DNA of 64,000 nucleotides from Arcobacter sp. F2176. Its GTDB lineage: Bacteria > Campylobacterota > Campylobacteria > Campylobacterales > Arcobacteraceae. A model generated the notes under the pieces. It saw nothing but the letters and a program-made list of their open reading frames with translations. It searched no databases and was not told the origin of the DNA. The position numbers and the translations under genes were made by a program. Of this stretch, positions 3,578 through 12,760 are shown one piece after another. The stretch spans positions 62,001-126,000 of the forward strand of contig NZ_PDJV01000007.1 of the NCBI RefSeq assembly GCF_004116465.1. The letters are read 5' to 3'. The first letter of the stretch is position 1; the number at the start of each line of letters is the position of its first letter.

Positions 3578-5839
3578 ATGAGTGAGCACAAAGATTTTTT
3601 ACGAGTCAAAGTTGAAGAAGACTTAAAGTCAGGCAAATACAAAGAAGTAGTTACCAGATTTCCCCCTGAGCCAAATGGCTTTCCACATATAGGACATGCT
3701 AAATCTATTTGTATAAATTTTGGGATTGCACGAGACTTTGGTGGTCACTGTAACCTTAGAATGGATGATACAGACCCTACAAAAGAAGATACAAAATATG
3801 TTGAGGCTCTAAAAGATGCTGTAAAATGGCTTGGTTTTGAATGGGGAGAAACAGAGTACTATACTTCTGATTATTTTTCTAAACTTTATGATTATGCAGT
3901 TGAACTTATTAAAATGGGTAAAGCTTATGTTGATAGCTTAAATGAAGAAGAGATAAGAGAATATCGTGGAACTGTCACACAAGCTGGTAAAAGAAGTAAA
4001 TATGCACAGCGTTCTATTGAAGAAAACTTAGACCTTTTTGAAAGAATGAAAAAGGGTGAGTTCAAAGATGGAGAACATATCTTAAGAGCTAAGATTGATA
4101 TGAGTGCAGCAAATATGAAAATGAGAGATCCACTTTTATACAGAATCAGACATGCTCACCATTATAGAGCAGGAGATGAATGGTATGTTTATCCTATGTA
4201 TGATTTTGCTCATTGTCTGTCGGATTATACAGAAGGTGTTACTCACTCTATTTGTACCCTTGAATTTGAAAACAACCGTGAACTTTATGATTGGGTACTT
4301 GATAATCTTAACTTAACACCTCCAAGACCTTACCAACATGAGTTTGCAAGACTTGGTATCAACTATACAGTTATGAGTAAAAGAAAACTACTAGAACTAG
4401 TTGAAGGTAAATATGTAAGTGGTTGGGATGACCCTCGTATGCCTACAATTGCTGGATACAAAAGAAGAGGATATACACCTGAGTCTATTTTAAACTTTTG
4501 TGACCAAATAGGTATTGCCAAAGCAAACTCAATGGTTGATGTATCGCAACTTGAATTTTGTATTAGAGATGATTTGAACCAAAAAGTACCAAGAGTGATG
4601 TGTGTACTTGACCCAATAAAAGTTACCATTGAAAATTATGAAGGAAGTGAAAGCATTGAGGCTTCATACTATCCACATGATGTACCAAAAGAGGGTTCAA
4701 GAAAAATACCTTTTTCAAAAGAACTTTATATCGAAAGAGAAGACTTTTCTGAAAATCCACAAAAAGACTACAATCGTCTTACCCTAGAACAACCAGTAAG
4801 ATTAAGACATGCTTATATCATCACTTGTAAAGAAGTCCTAAAAGATGCAAATGGAGATATCATAGAAATAAAAGCAGAGTATAATGCTGATTCTAAAAGT
4901 GGACAAGATACAAGTGGTATCAAAGTAAAAAGTGCAATACAATGGGTTGATGCAAAAGAGGCAAAACAAATCGAAGTAAGACTTTATGATAGATTATATA
5001 AAAATGAAGCACCAGAAGGATTAGAAGACTTAAATCCAAACTCTTTATCAATCATCAAAAATGCACTTGTGGAACCTGCTGTTATCACTGAAAAAGCAGA
5101 TGAGAGATTTCAGTTCGAAAGACAAGGTTATTTTTACGCTGATCCTATTGATTATACTGATGAAAAACCAGTATTTAATAAAATAGTTGGACTAAAAGAT
5201 TCTTGGGCAAAAAAAGTAAAAACAACTGAAAGTACACCAAAACCTGCACCTAAACAAGAAGTAAAAAAAGAAGTAGTACATGGTGAAGCCCAAGCTTTAA
5301 ATGAAAAAGAAAAAGCACTATTTGATAAATATACGACTGAACTTAAACTAAATAGTGAAGTTGCAAATATCTTAGCAAGAGATGAAAAGCTTTCATCATT
5401 TTATGAAGAGGCATTATCAGAGCTGAATAACCCTGTTGCAATAGCAAATATTGTAGCAAATGAAGTAGCTAAAGAGTTAAAAGAAAAACAAGCAAATGAG
5501 TTAAAGTTTACAGCAGTCCAAATAGCACAACTTATTAAAATGGTAAATGAAGAAACTATTTCAAGTAAAATTGCAAAACAAGTATTTGAAGAGATGTGTA
5601 AATCAGGAGAGAATCCAGCAAAAATAGTTGAAGCAAAAGGACTAGTACAAATAAGTGACCCATCAGTAATCTTACCAATTATCGATGAAATAATTGCGAA
5701 AAATCCAGACAATGTTGAAAAATATAAAGCTGGTAATACAAAACTATTAGGCTTCTTTGTAGGACAAGTTATTAAAAATACTGGTGGGAAAGCAAATCCA
5801 CAAGTTGTAAATGAACTTGTGGCACAGAAGTTGAAATAA
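3578..5839 (+). CDS. glnS: Glutaminyl-tRNA synthetase with C-terminal YqeY domain
   Basis: This enzyme charges tRNA-Gln with glutamine in the cytoplasm. The class I signatures are clear: PPEPNGFPHIGH (HIGH at residues 37-40) and a KMSKS-type loop VMSKRK near residue 265, followed by the beta-barrel anticodon-binding region to about residue 545. The protein is 753 residues long against about 550 in E. coli. The extra C-terminal part (about 575-753), after a Pro/Lys-rich linker, matches the GatB/YqeY tail domain that binds tRNA. The same fusion is known in Deinococcus GlnRS. The gene is single, with AAAAGG upstream of ATG and a terminator directly behind it. Many relatives in this phylum lack GlnRS and use GatCAB instead. 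Confidence 0.95.
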   Translation: MSEHKDFLRVKVEEDLKSGKYKEVVTRFPPEPNGFPHIGHAKSICINFGIARDFGGHCNLRMDDTDPTKEDTKYVEALKDAVKWLGFEWGETEYYTSDYFSKLYDYAVELIKMGKAYVDSLNEEEIREYRGTVTQAGKRSKYAQRSIEENLDLFERMKKGEFKDGEHILRAKIDMSAANMKMRDPLLYRIRHAHHYRAGDEWYVYPMYDFAHCLSDYTEGVTHSICTLEFENNRELYDWVLDNLNLTPPRPYQHEFARLGINYTVMSKRKLLELVEGKYVSGWDDPRMPTIAGYKRRGYTPESILNFCDQIGIAKANSMVDVSQLEFCIRDDLNQKVPRVMCVLDPIKVTIENYEGSESIEASYYPHDVPKEGSRKIPFSKELYIEREDFSENPQKDYNRLTLEQPVRLRHAYIITCKEVLKDANGDIIEIKAEYNADSKSGQDTSGIKVKSAIQWVDAKEAKQIEVRLYDRLYKNEAPEGLEDLNPNSLSIIKNALVEPAVITEKADERFQFERQGYFYADPIDYTDEKPVFNKIVGLKDSWAKKVKTTESTPKPAPKQEVKKEVVHGEAQALNEKEKALFDKYTTELKLNSEVANILARDEKLSSFYEEALSELNNPVAIANIVANEVAKELKEKQANELKFTAVQIAQLIKMVNEETISSKIAKQVFEEMCKSGENPAKIVEAKGLVQISDPSVILPIIDEIIAKNPDNVEKYKAGNTKLLGFFVGQVIKNTGGKANPQVVNELVAQKLK

Positions 5840-5874
5840 TATAAATATCTCATCATTTTTATATAAAGCTAAGT

Positions 5875-5901
5875 AGAAGTAACTATTAAGTTACTTCTTT
5901 T
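5875..5901 (+). terminator. Rho-independent terminator of glnS
   Basis: A perfect 9-bp stem (AGAAGTAAC / GTTACTTCT) with a 6-base loop (TATTAA) is followed by TTT. It starts 36 bases after the glnS stop and separates glnS from the regulated promoter that follows. Confidence 0.75.
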
Positions 5902-5921
5902 ACCATAAACTCTCACACTCA

Positions 5922-5978
5922 AAAATTGTTAAGAACATGTCAAGAACTATACCCTTTTTAACTTTGCAGAAATATACT
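5922..5978 (+). promoter_or_regulatory. Operator and promoter of the 27-codon miniprotein
   Basis: Two direct repeats, TGTTAAGAAC (5927-5936) and TGTCAAGAAC (5938-5947), lie exactly 11 bases apart, the helical spacing typical of OmpR/PhoB-family binding boxes. A TATACT hexamer (5973-5978) follows after 25 bases; no good -35 is present, as expected of an activator-dependent promoter. The 48 bases 5922-5969 match the reverse complement of 8263-8310 at 43 positions. That second copy sits in front of the adjacent response regulator gene with the same 25-base spacing to its -10. The inferred ligand is the response regulator encoded at 7477-8151. Confidence 0.7.
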
Positions 5979-6017
5979 AAAATTAAATTATAAGAAAATT
6001 ATTAAAAAGGAACTATC

Positions 6018-6101
6018 ATGGAATTCTTAAGAAACTTAATAATAGTAAATGTTGTAGTATTTTTAGGATTAGGATTTTTATCTAGTGCATTAGCTAGCTA
6101 A
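6018..6101 (+). CDS. Predicted 27-residue membrane miniprotein
   Basis: An ATG with a good ribosome site (AAGGA at 6007-6011, 6 bases away) opens 27 codons ending in TAA. The peptide starts MEFLRNLIIVNVVVF and ends GLGFLSSALAS. It has one charged patch (E2, R5), then about 19 hydrophobic residues that would make one membrane helix or an uncleaved or cleaved signal sequence; the ALA-S end resembles a signal-peptidase site. It has its own promoter and the operator shared with the response regulator. It lies between the glnS terminator and the 3' end of the histidine kinase. Small membrane peptides controlled by a two-component system and acting back on its kinase are known elsewhere (MgrB on PhoQ); a similar role here is inference. 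No homologue is recognised. Confidence 0.6.
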   Translation: MEFLRNLIIVNVVVFLGLGFLSSALAS

Positions 6102-6104
6102 AAT

Positions 6105-7487
6105 CTAATTTTTTAATATTATTTTAAATATATTATATGAGTCTTTATGGGTATATTTTAAATCAAATCCATGAAGCTCTAATATTTTATTTACAATATT
6201 TAGGCCCAAGCCATGACCTTCTTCTTGGTTTGGCTCTCTTGTGAAAGGTTGGATGTAATATATTAAATCATTTGAAAGTTCATTTGCGATATTTTTTACA
6301 TAAATTCCATCATCACAACTTTCTATTATTATTGGAAACTCTTTAGCATATTTCATAGCATTGCTAATCAAGTTTTTAAGGGCAATAGTTAGATAATAAA
6401 AATCTGCTTCAATATTAAAATCATTTTTAATATTTACTGTTACATTTGACTCATTTTCAATAGAGAGTTTAGATAAAGATTCTAGTATTAAAGAACTCAC
6501 TTTAAATTTACTTCTTTTTAAAACTGCAAAGTTTAGTTTTTCCCTTTGTAAGAGTTTACTTGTAAGCTTTTCAATATCATAAAAGATTGTATTTATATCT
6601 TTTAGTATTTGATTATCTTCTTTATTTTTGATTTTTCGAAGCATGAACTTTCCCTTCGTAATTGGGGTTTTTAATTCATGACTAATATTTCGTAAAAGCT
6701 CTTCTCTTGAATATATAATATTTGCTTGTTTTTCTAAATATGAGTTTAAATTTTCGGTTATCACACTAAGCTCATTATTGCGTCCAATGTCTACTTTTAT
6801 AATTTTTTCATCATTTTTAAATAAATGTAAAACACCTTGATTTAATTTATCAAGCTTATCTTTTATCTCATTTATAATCTTTGAAGAAATTATAGAACTA
6901 AGTAAAAATAAGACAATAAATAAAATAACTAATTCAAGTTTTATAGTATCTAAAAAGTCATCTCTTTTATTTTGAGTTTGAGTTAATTCTTCTTGTAAAT
7001 ATTTTATCTCTTCTTCAAGTAGTTTTTGACTATGCATATTTACTTGTTCAAACTTTTTATTAAAGGCAATAAAATCAGTATTTTTATTAAGCACTAAAGT
7101 ATATAATTCTTCACTTATTGATTTTTGCATAGTCTCAAAATATGAAAAAATCAAAACTAAACTTCTTTCTTCTTCTTTTGATTCAGAATTATTTATGATT
7201 TTAGTTTTTTGAGTACTCAAATTTTCAAAGAGTTCATTTGCTTTATTGATTCGATCCTTTACTATTTGTATTTTGTCAAAGTCAGTTATAATATCAAGTA
7301 CTATCCATGAATAAGAGTTACTAAACTCTTTTAATTTTTCCATTCTTATTAATTGATCATACCTATGTTTTTGTTGAGAATTGATGCTATTTAGATTATA
7401 AATTGTATAAAAAAACACTCCAATAATAAAAGCAACAATCAATAAGATTAAGCAAAATGATATAAATAATCGTTTTCTAATTGTCAT
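6105..7487 (-). CDS. Sensor histidine kinase (ArsS-like)
   Basis: An inner-membrane sensor of about 460 residues. It has membrane helices near residues 9-30 and 184-205 enclosing a helical periplasmic domain of about 150 residues, then a HAMP-like linker, the dimerisation box with phospho-acceptor His in ISHELKTPITKG, the N box NLISNAMKYA, and the G2 box GHGLGLNIV. The ISHELKTPITKG box is characteristic of Campylobacterota ArsS-type kinases. The ATG at 7487 is preferred over an upstream TTG at 7505; either start overlaps the end of the response regulator gene, so the two are translationally coupled. Its stop lies 4 bases from the stop of the convergent 27-codon gene. The signal sensed is unknown. 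Confidence 0.85.
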   Translation of the reverse strand: MTIRKRLFISFCLILLIVAFIIGVFFYTIYNLNSINSQQKHRYDQLIRMEKLKEFSNSYSWIVLDIITDFDKIQIVKDRINKANELFENLSTQKTKIINNSESKEEERSLVLIFSYFETMQKSISEELYTLVLNKNTDFIAFNKKFEQVNMHSQKLLEEEIKYLQEELTQTQNKRDDFLDTIKLELVILFIVLFLLSSIISSKIINEIKDKLDKLNQGVLHLFKNDEKIIKVDIGRNNELSVITENLNSYLEKQANIIYSREELLRNISHELKTPITKGKFMLRKIKNKEDNQILKDINTIFYDIEKLTSKLLQREKLNFAVLKRSKFKVSSLILESLSKLSIENESNVTVNIKNDFNIEADFYYLTIALKNLISNAMKYAKEFPIIIESCDDGIYVKNIANELSNDLIYYIQPFTREPNQEEGHGLGLNIVNKILELHGFDLKYTHKDSYNIFKIILKN

Positions 7488-8151
7488 AAAAAAACTTATA
7501 CCCAATACCCCAAATAGATTTTATGTATTTAGGTTCTTTTGAATTATCATCAATCTTAAATCTAATATTACTAATATGAGTATCTATTGTTCTATTTTTT
7601 GTATCATCATTAAGTGAAGTTTCTTTTGCTATATCTTCTCTTGATATGATTTTATTTAGATTATTTACAAATAATAAAAAAATCTCTTTTTCAACTTTAG
7701 TAAACTCTATTTCAACATCACTTAAAAAAACGCTTGAGCTATTTAAATCAATACTTAAGTCATGTATTTTAAGAAAATCTACTTTATTGTATCTTTTTAA
7801 GATGGCTTCAACTCTAAGAATCAGTTCCCTAGGCTCATATGGTTTTGAAAGATAATCATCTGTCCCAAGTTCAAATCCATAGATTTTGTTACCTATATCA
7901 TCCCTTGCTGTTGATATAAGAATAGGAATATTTTTTATCTCTTTTAATTTTTTAAACAAATCAAAACCATCCATAAGAGGAAGACCTAAATCAAGTATAG
8001 CGATAGTAAAATCATCTGGTTTTTTTTTAAATGACTCCAAGGCATCTATTGGATTTGAAAAGGCACTGCATAAATAATTATATTCTTCCAAATACTCATT
8101 TATCAAGTTTTGTAAAACTAAGTCATCTTCAACTAGTAATACTTTTTTCAT
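7477..8151 (-). CDS. OmpR-family response regulator
   Basis: A 224-residue regulator. The receiver domain covers residues 1-120, with acidic pocket VEDD, phospho-acceptor Asp54 in AILDLGLP, and conserved Lys in YLSKPYEP. A winged-helix DNA-binding domain follows (about 130-224) and ends in the usual hairpin SIWGIGYKF. It is the first gene of the pair with the histidine kinase. Its upstream region carries two 11-base-spaced repeats identical in layout to those before the 27-codon gene, so it very likely activates its own operon and the miniprotein gene. It has an AAAGGTG ribosome site. Confidence 0.9.
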   Translation of the reverse strand: MKKVLLVEDDLVLQNLINEYLEEYNYLCSAFSNPIDALESFKKKPDDFTIAILDLGLPLMDGFDLFKKLKEIKNIPILISTARDDIGNKIYGFELGTDDYLSKPYEPRELILRVEAILKRYNKVDFLKIHDLSIDLNSSSVFLSDVEIEFTKVEKEIFLLFVNNLNKIISREDIAKETSLNDDTKNRTIDTHISNIRFKIDDNSKEPKYIKSIWGIGYKFFYDN

Positions 8152-8253
8152 ATCTCACCTTTTCAATTATCATATCTTATTTGCAATATATTTTAACAAA
8201 AAAATCTAAATAATCCTCCTGTAGTTAATTCATTTTAGTCAAGTAGTTATTAT

Positions 8254-8310
8254 ATTATCAATTTGCAAAGTTACAAAGTGTATAGTTCTTGACAATTTCT
8301 TAACAATTTT
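8254..8310 (-). promoter_or_regulatory. Operator and promoter of the two-component operon
   Basis: Read on the minus strand, repeats TGTTAAGAAA (8305-8296) and TGTCAAGAAC (8294-8285) are 11 bases apart. They are followed after exactly 25 bases by GATAAT (8259-8254) as the -10 of the response regulator gene. The 48 bases 8263-8310 are an inverted copy of 5922-5969 with 5 mismatches. On the plus strand the same block contains a perfect TTGACA (8289-8294), a possible -35 for the divergent DUF350 gene, so occupancy could affect both directions. Confidence 0.7.
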
Positions 8311-8385
8311 AAAATAAATGTTATTACAAATACCATAATAAAGCATATAGCTACTTTTAGATAAGATTTCAAAAAAGGATTTAAA

Positions 8386-8790
8386 ATGGAAATAGGATTA
8401 TTTATAGGCTTTCTTGGCTTCTTTCTTACAGCTATTATTTTAGTGATTATTTTTCTTTATTTGTATGCAGTTGTTACGCCATATGATGATTATAAGCTAA
8501 TTTTTGAGGACAATAATCTAGCAGCAGCACTTGGTTTTGGGGGAGCTATTATTGGGGTTTCTATTCCTTTATATAGTGCCTTAGTTAACTCTATATCGTA
8601 TATAGATTTTGCTATTTGGGGAACAGTTGCAATATTTATACAATTAATTTTTGCATTTATTGTAACAAGACTTGGGGGAAAATACTCTTTTAAAACAAAG
8701 ATTTCTGATGGAATCATATCTGTGGGGATTTTAATGGCATTTTTATCAATCTCAATTGGACTTTTAAATGCAGGATCAATGAGTTACTAA
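8386..8790 (+). CDS. DUF350 (YjfL-type) membrane protein
   Basis: 134 residues forming four hydrophobic helices (about 5-28, 46-68, 72-94, 108-130). A conserved-looking acidic loop (TPYDDYKLIFEDNNLAAAL) leads into the glycine-rich second helix GFGGAIIGVSIPLYSAL, the pattern of the DUF350/YjfL family, whose function is unknown. It diverges from the two-component operon and its leader contains the second operator, so it may belong to the same regulon. The ribosome site AAAAGGA sits 8 bases before ATG. Confidence 0.75.
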   Translation: MEIGLFIGFLGFFLTAIILVIIFLYLYAVVTPYDDYKLIFEDNNLAAALGFGGAIIGVSIPLYSALVNSISYIDFAIWGTVAIFIQLIFAFIVTRLGGKYSFKTKISDGIISVGILMAFLSISIGLLNAGSMSY

Positions 8791-8804: not shown

Positions 8805-11309
8805 CTACTCACCAAAAAGAATATTCTCTTTTTGGTGAATCATTCTTGAAGTAAAAAAGCTAACAATAAAGATGGTCAAAATTGGTATAAAGAAAAAGTA
8901 CAACAATAAAACATCTGGTCTAAAATCCCAATAAGACTCAAAAAGTATGTTACTTATAATATATGAACCAATACTTCCTAAAACGATTCCCAAAGAACTT
9001 GCGCAAAATGAGATTAACCCAAATTCTATTAAAAAAGAGTTTCTGATGGTTTTATTTTTTACTCCAATCATTTTTAGTCTTAATATATTGTTTTTTTGTA
9101 AATTCATTTGATACTGAATAATAATAAAACTCATAAGAAGCCCAATAATTATGGAATAAAGACTCATCTTATCAGTTATTTCTGTGACATTTTTTACAAG
9201 GTTTGAAAAAGTCTCAAATAAACTTTTTACATCAATAACAGTCAAACTCGGGAAAAGTTCAGTTAGCTTTATCAGCATAGCAGTTGCATCATAATTCCCT
9301 GAAGAAATAGTTGCTAGTATAGTTTTAGGAGCATCATCTAAAGCACCATCTTGCAAAATCAAAAAGAAGTTTGGTACAAATTCAGTCCACTTTACGGTTC
9401 TTATATTCACAACAACTGCTTTTAATTCAAGACCTAAGATATCAAAAACAAGATGGTCACCTAATTTTATTGCTCTTCTATTTGCATATCTTTTTTCAAC
9501 ACTTACCTCTATTGGTTTAGAAAAATCTTTTGAGTTGTATACTCCACTAAAGTCTCGCCCTTCAACAATTTGTTCACTTTTTTTGAGCCCACTTCTATAT
9601 GAAAGATTTACTGCCCTATTTTTAAGTTCATTTTTCTCTTTTTTTAGTTCTTCACTTCCACTGTTTTTAGAATGATTTGTAAAATCTACATCATTTACTT
9701 TTATTATTCTCCCTCGAATCATGGGTGAAATATTTTCTAATTGTGTTCCCATGTTCTCAACTTGGGTTTTTATATCTTTTATTTGCTCCTCTTTTGCATC
9801 AATTACAAAAAACCTTGGTCTTTCATCAGCACTTTGCATCAAAGCACTTGATAAAGATGAGCCAATCTGAGGAATAAGACTAAAAAAGGTCGTACATAAA
9901 AGTATCGCTGTAAACAAAGTCAAAGATGTCTTTTTTTGTCTAACAATATTTTTTAAAGCCAAGGATAAAGATAGATTTTCCAAATGCCCTGAAAAATCAA
10001 ATTTTCTTAAAAATAAAGAGCCAATTGCAAAAAATAAGATGATAAGTATTAACATTGCTAAAGCAAAAAGAATACCTACATTTTTAGCAGGCGTTACAAA
10101 ATGAGATATTATTAATAAAACTGTAATAAAAGGAGTAAAACTAATAATTATCTTAGAAAATGATTGCTTTGTTCTTTGAAGGAAAGGCAAAATCAATGGT
10201 AATCCTATACTTAAACTCAAAAGTATTAATACAAGTGATGATTTTAAGAAAAAGTAATAGTCCAATGAAAAATCAAAATTGAAATCCACAAGTTTTTTGA
10301 TAATAGGACCTATAAACTGTGCAGACAGACTCATAAGTGAAAAAACAATAACAGTAGATATTGTAATCAATACAAAGAGGTGCAAAATATATGTAATACC
10401 TAAACTTTTTTTACTAAGTCCCAAGTCGCTTAAAATAGTAATGTCTTTTTGATGCTTTCTTAAAAAACCAGAATATAGATAAATAAGTCCAACTAAACCC
10501 AAAAAGAAAGAAACAAGTGAAACCAAAGACAAAAAATCTGTAACGAAGGTCAAAACACGAAGCAATCTATCTTTTCCATCATTGGGAGAAAGAACTCTCA
10601 AGTTTTGATCAACACTTTTTTCTAACTGATTTTCGATTTTTTCTAATTTGTCATTGTCTAAATTTTCTTTAAAAACATAGTTTAATTTGTATCTAGCAGT
10701 AGAGCCAAACTGTAAGAGTTTGGTTTTTTCTAGTCCCTCTTCACTTATATAAATCTTAGGCATAAACCCACTAAAACTTACTGTTTTTAAGGAGTCTTCT
10801 TCAATGACTTTTTTTATAATAAAACTTTCTTGACCGATTTTTAAACTATCACCTTGTTTTAAACTAAGTAAATCTAAAACTTCTTGATAAACCCAAACTT
10901 CATTTGATTTTGGTTGGGCTTCTTCTTGTGGATAAGTAGATTTGTCTTTAAAAACCAATCCCCCATAATAAGGATAACCTTCATTTACCTTGACTACTTC
11001 CATTAGCCTAGCTCTTTTTTTAGAAGCAATCATACTAACAGTTGAAATACCTTCATTAAAATCTTTTATGGCAGGAAGTTTGTTTTTGATGTCTTGTTTT
11101 TCTTGGTCACTTATAGGAAACCTTGAAGATACAACAAGGTCAGAACCTAATAAAACCTTTGCTTTTGTATCTAGCGAGTGTTCTATACTTCCTTTAAAAA
11201 ACTGTAAATATGAAAGTGAGGCAATAGCTAAACAAAAGTTTAATATAAATATCAAGCTAAAAGACTTTGAACGAGCCAAAGCCTTAAAAACAAGTTCTAA
11301 TACTAACAT
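8805..11309 (-). CDS. ybbP: ABC transporter permease YbbP-like (FtsX domains)
   Basis: An 834-residue inner-membrane permease with an N-terminal helix, a MacB-like periplasmic domain (about 40-245), and repeated FtsX-type helix bundles (about 250-440 and 700-834). A second large periplasmic domain lies between them. Size and layout match E. coli YbbP (about 800 residues). It overlaps ybbA by 7 bases and the next gene upstream is tesA, the conserved tesA-ybbA-ybbP set. The substrate is not established; lipid or lipoprotein-related export is a common guess for MacB/LolCE relatives. Confidence 0.85.
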   Translation of the reverse strand: MLVLELVFKALARSKSFSLIFILNFCLAIASLSYLQFFKGSIEHSLDTKAKVLLGSDLVVSSRFPISDQEKQDIKNKLPAIKDFNEGISTVSMIASKKRARLMEVVKVNEGYPYYGGLVFKDKSTYPQEEAQPKSNEVWVYQEVLDLLSLKQGDSLKIGQESFIIKKVIEEDSLKTVSFSGFMPKIYISEEGLEKTKLLQFGSTARYKLNYVFKENLDNDKLEKIENQLEKSVDQNLRVLSPNDGKDRLLRVLTFVTDFLSLVSLVSFFLGLVGLIYLYSGFLRKHQKDITILSDLGLSKKSLGITYILHLFVLITISTVIVFSLMSLSAQFIGPIIKKLVDFNFDFSLDYYFFLKSSLVLILLSLSIGLPLILPFLQRTKQSFSKIIISFTPFITVLLIISHFVTPAKNVGILFALAMLILIILFFAIGSLFLRKFDFSGHLENLSLSLALKNIVRQKKTSLTLFTAILLCTTFFSLIPQIGSSLSSALMQSADERPRFFVIDAKEEQIKDIKTQVENMGTQLENISPMIRGRIIKVNDVDFTNHSKNSGSEELKKEKNELKNRAVNLSYRSGLKKSEQIVEGRDFSGVYNSKDFSKPIEVSVEKRYANRRAIKLGDHLVFDILGLELKAVVVNIRTVKWTEFVPNFFLILQDGALDDAPKTILATISSGNYDATAMLIKLTELFPSLTVIDVKSLFETFSNLVKNVTEITDKMSLYSIIIGLLMSFIIIQYQMNLQKNNILRLKMIGVKNKTIRNSFLIEFGLISFCASSLGIVLGSIGSYIISNILFESYWDFRPDVLLLYFFFIPILTIFIVSFFTSRMIHQKENILFGE
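8809..8838. terminator. Hairpin between convergent DUF350 and ybbP genes
   Basis: A perfect 12-bp inverted repeat, TCACCAAAAAGA / TCTTTTTGGTGA, with a 6-base loop lies at the 3' ends of the two convergent genes and overlaps the last codons of ybbP. The A/T run is inside the stem, so it could end transcripts in either direction. A smaller hairpin (ATGAGTT / AACTCAT, 8779-8797) overlaps the end of the DUF350 gene. Confidence 0.5.
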
Positions 11310-11965
11310 TGAGTTAAACTTCCAGAAACTAGCTCATAAGTCTTTTCACAACGAGCAGCAACATCTTTTGAGTGAGTCACTAAAATCAAAGTCATGTTGT
11401 TTTTTTTTATTAGTTCAAAAAGTATATCCATAACTGCATTGCCAGTCTCATCATCTAAATTTCCACTTGGTTCATCTGCTAAGATTATCTTGGGATTATG
11501 AATAAGTGCCCTTGCAATAGCAACCCGCTGTTTTTCACCACCACTTAGTTGTGAAGGAAGATGATCTAGTCTATGAGAAAGCCCTACACTTTTTAAGAGT
11601 TCTATTGCTTTTTCTTTTGGCTTTGCAATATTACAAACTTTTGCAGGAAGCATCACATTTTCAAGGGCATTTAAATAAGAGACTAAATGAAAGTTTTGGA
11701 AAATAAACCCTATATTTGTAGCTCTAAAATCATTTAATTCACTCTCTTGTAAATCTTTATAAGAAGTAGAGTTTAAAGAAATATCACCAGAATTTGGTTT
11801 GATAATCCCTGAGATAAGAGAAAGTAGTGTTGATTTACCACTTCCTGATTTTCCCATGATAGCTACTCTTTCTTTCTCTTCTAAGTGAAAGTTTAGATTC
11901 TCAAATATCTCAATATTTTGTGAGCCTTGAAGGTATGATTTTTTTAATGATTTTAGTTCTAGCAT
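11303..11965 (-). CDS. ybbA: ABC transporter ATP-binding protein YbbA-like
   Basis: A 220-residue ATPase of the LolD/MacB subgroup. It has Walker A GKSGSGKSTLL (about residue 38-48), Q-loop FIFQNFHL, signature LSGGEKQRVAIARAL, Walker B IILADEPSGNLDD, and the switch His in LVTHS. It powers the YbbP permease encoded directly downstream. Its ATG overlaps the tesA stop (TAATG) and its end overlaps ybbP, so the three genes are coupled in translation. Confidence 0.93.
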   Translation of the reverse strand: MLELKSLKKSYLQGSQNIEIFENLNFHLEEKERVAIMGKSGSGKSTLLSLISGIIKPNSGDISLNSTSYKDLQESELNDFRATNIGFIFQNFHLVSYLNALENVMLPAKVCNIAKPKEKAIELLKSVGLSHRLDHLPSQLSGGEKQRVAIARALIHNPKIILADEPSGNLDDETGNAVMDILFELIKKNNMTLILVTHSKDVAARCEKTYELVSGSLTQC

Positions 11966-12567
11966 TAGAGGTCTTCCTTTATAAATTCAAAAACTTTTTT
12001 TGCAATATATTTATGACCCTCAACATTTGGATGAATGCCATCTCTTTGATTAAACTCTTTTTTTCCAGCAATCCCATCTAATAAAAAAGGCATACTTCTT
12101 AACTTGTATTTATCTTTTATTTGTTGATACATTTTTTCAAAACGCTTTGTATATTCAGGGCCATAATTAGGAGGCATAAGCATGCCTGCTAATAAAACTT
12201 TTGCATTTGATTCTTGGGCATAGTTGATTATTTCTTCAAGATTTTTCTGACTTTGTTTGAGATCCAAACCTCGAAGACCATCATTTGCACCAAGAGCTAC
12301 TAATATAAGATATGGCTTTTTTTTCATATACCATTTAAGACGAGAGAGCCCATCACTTGTAGTAGAGCCACTAACTCCACCATTTATAACTGTAATATCT
12401 TTTTTGAGTTTAGTGTGAATCATATTCTCAACAAGACTAGGAAAAGCATCTTCTTTATTGACACCAAGCCCTTCTGTTAAAGAATCTCCCAAAAAAAGAA
12501 TCGTGTCAGATTTTGCATTGACAATTTGAAGAGTAATTAAAAATAAGATTAAAATAATTTTTTTCAT
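11965..12567 (-). CDS. tesA: SGNH-family esterase/lysophospholipase TesA-like
   Basis: A secreted esterase of about 200 residues. It has an N-terminal signal peptide (MKKIILILFLITLQIVNA), block I GDSLTEGLG with the nucleophile Ser, block III GANDG, and block V DGIHPNVEGH with the catalytic Asp and His. It acts on acyl esters or thioesters in the periplasm. The ATG at 12567 is preferred over a TTG two codons earlier because it begins a normal signal peptide. It leads the tesA-ybbA-ybbP operon, a pairing conserved in many proteobacteria. Confidence 0.88.
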   Translation of the reverse strand: MKKIILILFLITLQIVNAKSDTILFLGDSLTEGLGVNKEDAFPSLVENMIHTKLKKDITVINGGVSGSTTSDGLSRLKWYMKKKPYLILVALGANDGLRGLDLKQSQKNLEEIINYAQESNAKVLLAGMLMPPNYGPEYTKRFEKMYQQIKDKYKLRSMPFLLDGIAGKKEFNQRDGIHPNVEGHKYIAKKVFEFIKEDL

Positions 12568-12760
12568 AAGCAATACTATCTAAAATCAAAAACTTTTTTA
12601 TTAAAAGCAAGAAGGTATAATAAAAATTAACATAATTTTAAGACTTAGATTAATAACAATAAAAAATCTATAAATAAAACCTTACAAGTTGTAATATTTT
12701 TAAATATAATCATTTTTTACAGATACAATAACATAAGAAAAGAGACAAAAGGACAAAAAA

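Follow-up and report, generated by a model that had tools for sequence, protein, structure and literature searches.

Results

A two-component module bracketed by two inverted box pairs

The window (the whole 64,000-nucleotide stretch analyzed here) contains a 2.5-kb module (5838–8345) made up of two promoters, a microprotein gene, a kinase gene and a regulator gene. The 224-residue response regulator (7477–8151, minus strand) matches the PF00072 receiver and the PF00486 Trans_reg_C winged helix, both over the cut-off, and its best solved relatives are regulators of the OmpR/PhoB family. The sensor histidine kinase (6105–7505, minus strand; HisKA and HATPase) starts at TTG 7505 or, more likely, at ATG 7484. 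Its best-matching family is the NCBIfam ArsS model NF038389, at 164.6 bits and under the curated cut-off of 250; the kinase is related to the ArsS family and is not filed as ArsS. On the plus strand, the 27-codon microprotein gene MEFLRNLIIVNVVVFLGLGFLSSALAS (6018–6101) has a good ribosome site (AAAAAGGA), encodes one hydrophobic segment and belongs to a conserved family.

Adjoining the module are a DUF350 gene (8386–8790), which is 94% identical in the same-genus genome G002 and absent from genome G001, and an FtsX/ABC/GDSL-lipase group (8805–12573). The window also encodes a 753-residue glutamyl/glutaminyl-tRNA synthetase with a C-terminal GatB/YqeY domain (3578–5839).

Two direct TGTYAAGAA boxes in an 11-base phase form operator A (5927–5946, plus strand), which is kept before the microprotein gene in relatives, and two more form operator B (8286–8305, minus strand), which faces the response regulator and resembles the promoter of relatives’ nhaA operons. 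The first-pass annotation had described positions 5922–5969 and the reverse complement of 8263–8310 as near-identical, and they do agree at 43 of 48 bases; no other 48-base stretch of the 64-kb window exceeds 29/48 against either site. The box pair TGTYAAGAANNTGTYAAGAA occurs with 0 mismatches at 5927–5946 (+) and 8305–8286 (−), its repeats 11 bases apart as that annotation wrote. The 3.27-Mb genome holds 2 perfect pairs against 0.005 expected and 3 with at most one mismatch against 0.24 expected, the expected counts being those of a first-order Markov model of window composition. At 3 mismatches the pattern shows no excess over background across the whole genome, and for this reason only three sites were considered. 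The third, with 1 mismatch, was located by the whole-genome search on contig C5 at 182599–182580. A sequence model, R1, built from the 36 aligned sites of alignment A1, likewise finds exactly 3 matches at E<0.01 in this genome. The pair is therefore not scattered at random.

The promoters share a third conserved element between the boxes and the -10

The hexamers proposed at first as -10 elements, TATACT at 5973 and GATAAT at 8259–8254 on the minus strand, are present as written, but the conserved -10 elements lie 5 bases further downstream. These are TAAAAT in promoter A (5978–5983, plus strand) and TATAAT in promoter B (8254–8249, minus strand), each 31 bases after its operator. Counted from the second box, the best -10 begins at a distance of exactly 31 or 30 bases in 44 of 55 aligned sites, with 31 in window-type sites and 30 in sites of the cytochrome-operon type.

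The bases around the boxes had been described as free to differ, a view that did not hold: the spacer agrees at 20 of 23 bases between sites A and B and has a conserved element inside it. In the site alignment this element reads CTTTGCA in the window and TTGACA in most relatives; as TTTGCA, it lies at 5963–5968 on the plus strand in promoter A and at 8264–8269 on the minus strand in promoter B. The resulting promoter consensus is TGTCAAGAA-N2-TGTCAAGAA-N16-TTGACA-N9-TATAAT. We considered and rejected TTGACA as a normal -35 element, since it ends just 9 bases before the -10, too near to act as its -35, and no -10 is found at 17 bases. Reverse-complementing TTGACA gives the box core TGTCAA, and it is on this account reasonable to read TTGACA/TTTGCA as a putative third, inverted half-site.

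If the -10 is placed at -12 to -7, the two boxes span -63 to -44 by arithmetic on the sequence. Sigma-70 promoters of Campylobacter have no conserved -35 (PMC4456614), which fits activator dependence. The operator centre near -53 departs from the classical class II position, which counts against an activation model; with the inverted third element lying at about -27 to -22, control could also be repressive or mixed.

The site is conserved across relatives in front of antiporter and microprotein genes

We searched 104 genomes of the family, 65 of which carry the regulator or its paralogue, and examined the loci around about 40 matches. Model R1 matches at E<=1e-4 in 40 of those 65 genomes and in 0 of the 39 others, a statistic that counts related genomes rather than independent events. 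The site is present at 31/31 loci of the window-type regulator clade, and where the two-component genes are kept the pair stands at the corresponding positions. Neither of the two outcomes that the first-pass annotation had named as refuting, random occurrence in the genome and absence from such relatives, was therefore observed.

Window-type sites front nhaA-regulator-kinase operons, the gene of a 25–27 aa microprotein, or Mrp/NhaC-type antiporter genes, with the antiporters assigned by Pfam (NhaA, PF06965; NhaC-type, PF03553/PF13726; Mrp, PF01899/PF00361/PF04039). In relatives the box pair precedes nhaA where nhaA heads the nhaA-regulator-kinase operon, and it precedes the gene of a 25–27 aa hydrophobic protein beside the kinase gene, in either orientation. 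The regulator operon’s own promoter bears the site in the window and at about 20 related loci. Variants of the arrangement include nhaA downstream of the kinase with the box pair present (L082, L083) and, with the operator present, an extra regulator copy that has no kinase gene beside it and precedes a microprotein gene and then an Mrp antiporter operon (L084, L085). Several sites lie away from the regulator. At L161 (2000–3696) a microprotein gene and then an NhaC-type Na+/H+ antiporter gene stand under the operator, with no two-component genes seen nearby; in three genomes (L169, L171, L172) the operator precedes cytochrome c peroxidase-like genes; there are others as well. In the searchable literature we found no description of an Arcobacter nhaA-linked two-component system or of the box motif.

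The proposal that one promoter points toward the regulator and the other toward the 27-codon gene gains strong support from this conservation across genomes. The further proposal, that the regulator would activate itself and one tiny gene, stood in part: both genes lie behind sites, but a third site stands at the paralogue’s operon and the relatives’ regulon would include antiporters. DUF350 was not supported as a target of site B, which faces away from it; G002 keeps the DUF350 upstream region without the site.

A paralogous regulator keeps the same operator

The window regulator has a single close paralogue in the genome (62% identity; C5:179431–180087), and the third site sits 2.5 kb upstream of it, heading its operon (contig C5, L025:6087–8516, minus strand). 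The operon encodes a DUF1924 cytochrome c, DHC (a dihaem cytochrome c), cytochrome b561, a periplasmic protein that is weakly LTXXQ/metal-resistance-like (CpxP/Spy-like), the regulator and a kinase. This third site explains the two in the window. Several further families of the order also have this cytochrome operon with the same box in front.

A maximum-likelihood tree separates 31 window-type from 24 cytochrome-operon regulators by one fully supported branch, each group having its own operon type and both having the same box. The recognition helix, TKNRTID(M/T)HISNIR(F/Y)KI, is nearly invariant across both groups, which fits a shared box being read by both, and the 11-base distance between boxes in the aligned sites matches the tandem, direct half-sites of 10–11 base phase read by OmpR/PhoB regulators. 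The earlier suggestion that the two sites are a genuine pair controlled by an OmpR-family regulator is strongly supported by the conservation across genomes together with a paralogue that keeps both recognition helix and box.

That the cytochrome-operon regulator binds the window sites too, or instead, within a regulon common to the two systems, appears rather unlikely to us. Recognition helices two conservative changes apart and the same box at both operons speak for such sharing, whereas the -10 is 31 bases away in one class and 30 in the other, and the spacers of the two classes are also unlike. These differences in spacing and spacer may provide some insulation.

The microprotein family accompanies the window-type regulator

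The microproteins form a family of 25–27 aa with the consensus MxFVRNLIIxVxVSFxxIGxISxSF, without a Pfam match. Of 29 genomes that carry the window-type regulator, 24 have a strong match, against 0 of the 75 genomes that lack it (p=5e-19, a value that overstates independence, as the genomes are related); two further matches elsewhere, with E near 0.01, were regarded as weak and not counted. The median pN/pS of about 0.41 among comparable pairs points to purifying selection on the gene. The family members are hydrophobic and have the site in front, from which control by the regulator is presumed. No description of the operator or of the microprotein family was found in searchable papers.

Two loci, L072 and L163, have different single-span microproteins of 28–29 aa (MENIGLIVFLGIVIVAVVLGFIALAKKR; MPIVDLVLFGFIGVVLIVSLVGFFIYNSK) directly behind the same operator. 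At L058, two tandem operators with microprotein-like frames lie downstream of the kinase (relative positions -2716 and -2353).

Gene neighborhoods bear on what the microprotein may do. In most genomes that have it, its gene adjoins the kinase, even where nhaA is missing there (window, L058, L065, L066). Together with a wiring that matches PhoP-mgrB (PMC2789325, PMC8404706), this makes it a credible possibility, if somewhat short of an even one, that the regulator-induced microprotein inserts in the membrane beside the kinase and closes the loop, as MgrB does on PhoQ. Copies that accompany antiporter genes and have no adjacent kinase (L084, L085, L161) argue the other way: two precede Mrp genes beside a kinase-less regulator, and the third precedes an NhaC-type antiporter gene with two-component genes not nearby. 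Alternatively, the microprotein could be an accessory peptide of Na+/H+ antiporters, co-induced by the regulator and serving their stability or activity. We regard this assignment as tentative and less likely than not. The operator and neighborhood are common to three unrelated antiporter families (NhaA, NhaC-type and Mrp), in its favor, but the microprotein genes of the window, L058, L065 and L066 have no adjoining antiporter gene, and L082 and L083 have nhaA directly downstream of the kinase yet no microprotein.

The module behaves like a unit that is portable or easily lost

G002 lacks the whole module between gltX and the DUF350 gene, and in other genera it is flanked by different genes. 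From these comparisons it appears to behave as a portable or easily lost unit. This absence from G002, with the inverted 48-base pair inside the missing 2.5-kb segment, could suggest that the pair represents the ends of a mobile element rather than operators. Such an origin is very improbable: the segment's outer ends fall elsewhere than the repeats and carry no repeats themselves, no transposase lies inside, and a target duplication is lacking, since the one 8-base match that flanks the repeats is missing from the empty site. In relatives, moreover, the orientation varies, the two sites often being direct, not inverted, with nhaA between them. Terminal repeats of a mobile element were rejected on these grounds.

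The promoter of the nhaA operon at L060 agrees with operator B at 39/48 bases. The L058 microprotein promoter agrees with it at 43/48, and some relatives’ microprotein promoters match as well or better. Given the likeness of the L060 promoter to B and the position of the regulator directly behind B, the arrangement is most simply read as a putative loss of nhaA from between promoter B and the regulator in this lineage. Elsewhere in the genome, the site is absent from both nhaA genes.

Discussion

We consider it highly probable, on the sequence comparisons above, that the two sites are the promoters of one small, positively autoregulated regulon. The phosphorylated regulator would bind the two TGT(C/T)AAGAA boxes, centred near -53, as a head-to-tail dimer and recruit RNA polymerase, the promoter itself having a good -10 but a poor -35. 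Promoter B would then drive the regulator-kinase operon and promoter A the 27-codon single-membrane-span protein, while in relatives the same operator would drive nhaA (within the regulator operon) and Mrp and NhaC-type Na+/H+ antiporters. After the putative loss of nhaA, the detectable targets here would be the regulator, the kinase and the microprotein, plus the paralogue’s cytochrome operon. We infer regulator binding, activation, the stimulus and the action of the microprotein on the kinase (an MgrB-like feedback) or on an antiporter from sequence.

The structure of the kinase input domain was tried as a clue to the signal and set aside: long helices bundled together are predicted for the periplasmic part (pTM only 0.42), and the matches among solved structures in the PDB were to the kinase core only. 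The pointer to a stimulus comes solely from the antiporter targets in relatives, by which the sensed condition would most likely be Na+, pH or membrane energization. The circuit is thus likely one for Na+/H+ or pH homeostasis, positively autoregulated, in which the microprotein tunes the kinase or an antiporter.

As judged from its genes and sites, the system would be of a known kind, an autoregulated two-component regulon that includes a small membrane protein. ArsRS of Helicobacter pylori, which is pH-responsive (PMC2736386), and RacRS of Campylobacter jejuni likewise pair an OmpR-family regulator with a kinase in Campylobacterota. Their target genes differ from those of the window system, and ArsR sites, for which no clear consensus has been described (PMC11162790), differ from the strict conserved 20-base box found here. 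PhoPQ/MgrB of Escherichia coli is autoregulated and its regulator drives the gene of a tiny single-span membrane protein, both of which are predicted in our case. Experiments show that MgrB, at 47 aa, inhibits PhoQ (PMC8404706), whereas the window microprotein family has 25–27 aa and is known here from sequence. Among Campylobacterales, the DUF1924/DHC/cytochrome b561 operons with a two-component pair house the window regulator’s paralogue behind the same operator; unlike them, the window-type copies are tied to Na+/H+ antiporter and microprotein genes.

More speculatively, and we hold this to be improbable though worth stating, the microprotein may found a new membrane regulatory family that travels with unrelated antiporters (NhaA, NhaC-type and Mrp) under one regulator and tunes the kinase or the antiporters, and the promoter, with its inverted third half-site in the core, may be a switch new for this regulator group.

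These results provide a precise operator for Campylobacterota regulators related to ArsR/RacR and link this regulator group to Na+/H+ antiporters. They add an unannotated family of putative membrane microproteins whose apparent dependence on one regulator can be followed from genome to genome, and they present a case in which one operator has been kept by two paralogous systems while the target genes changed.
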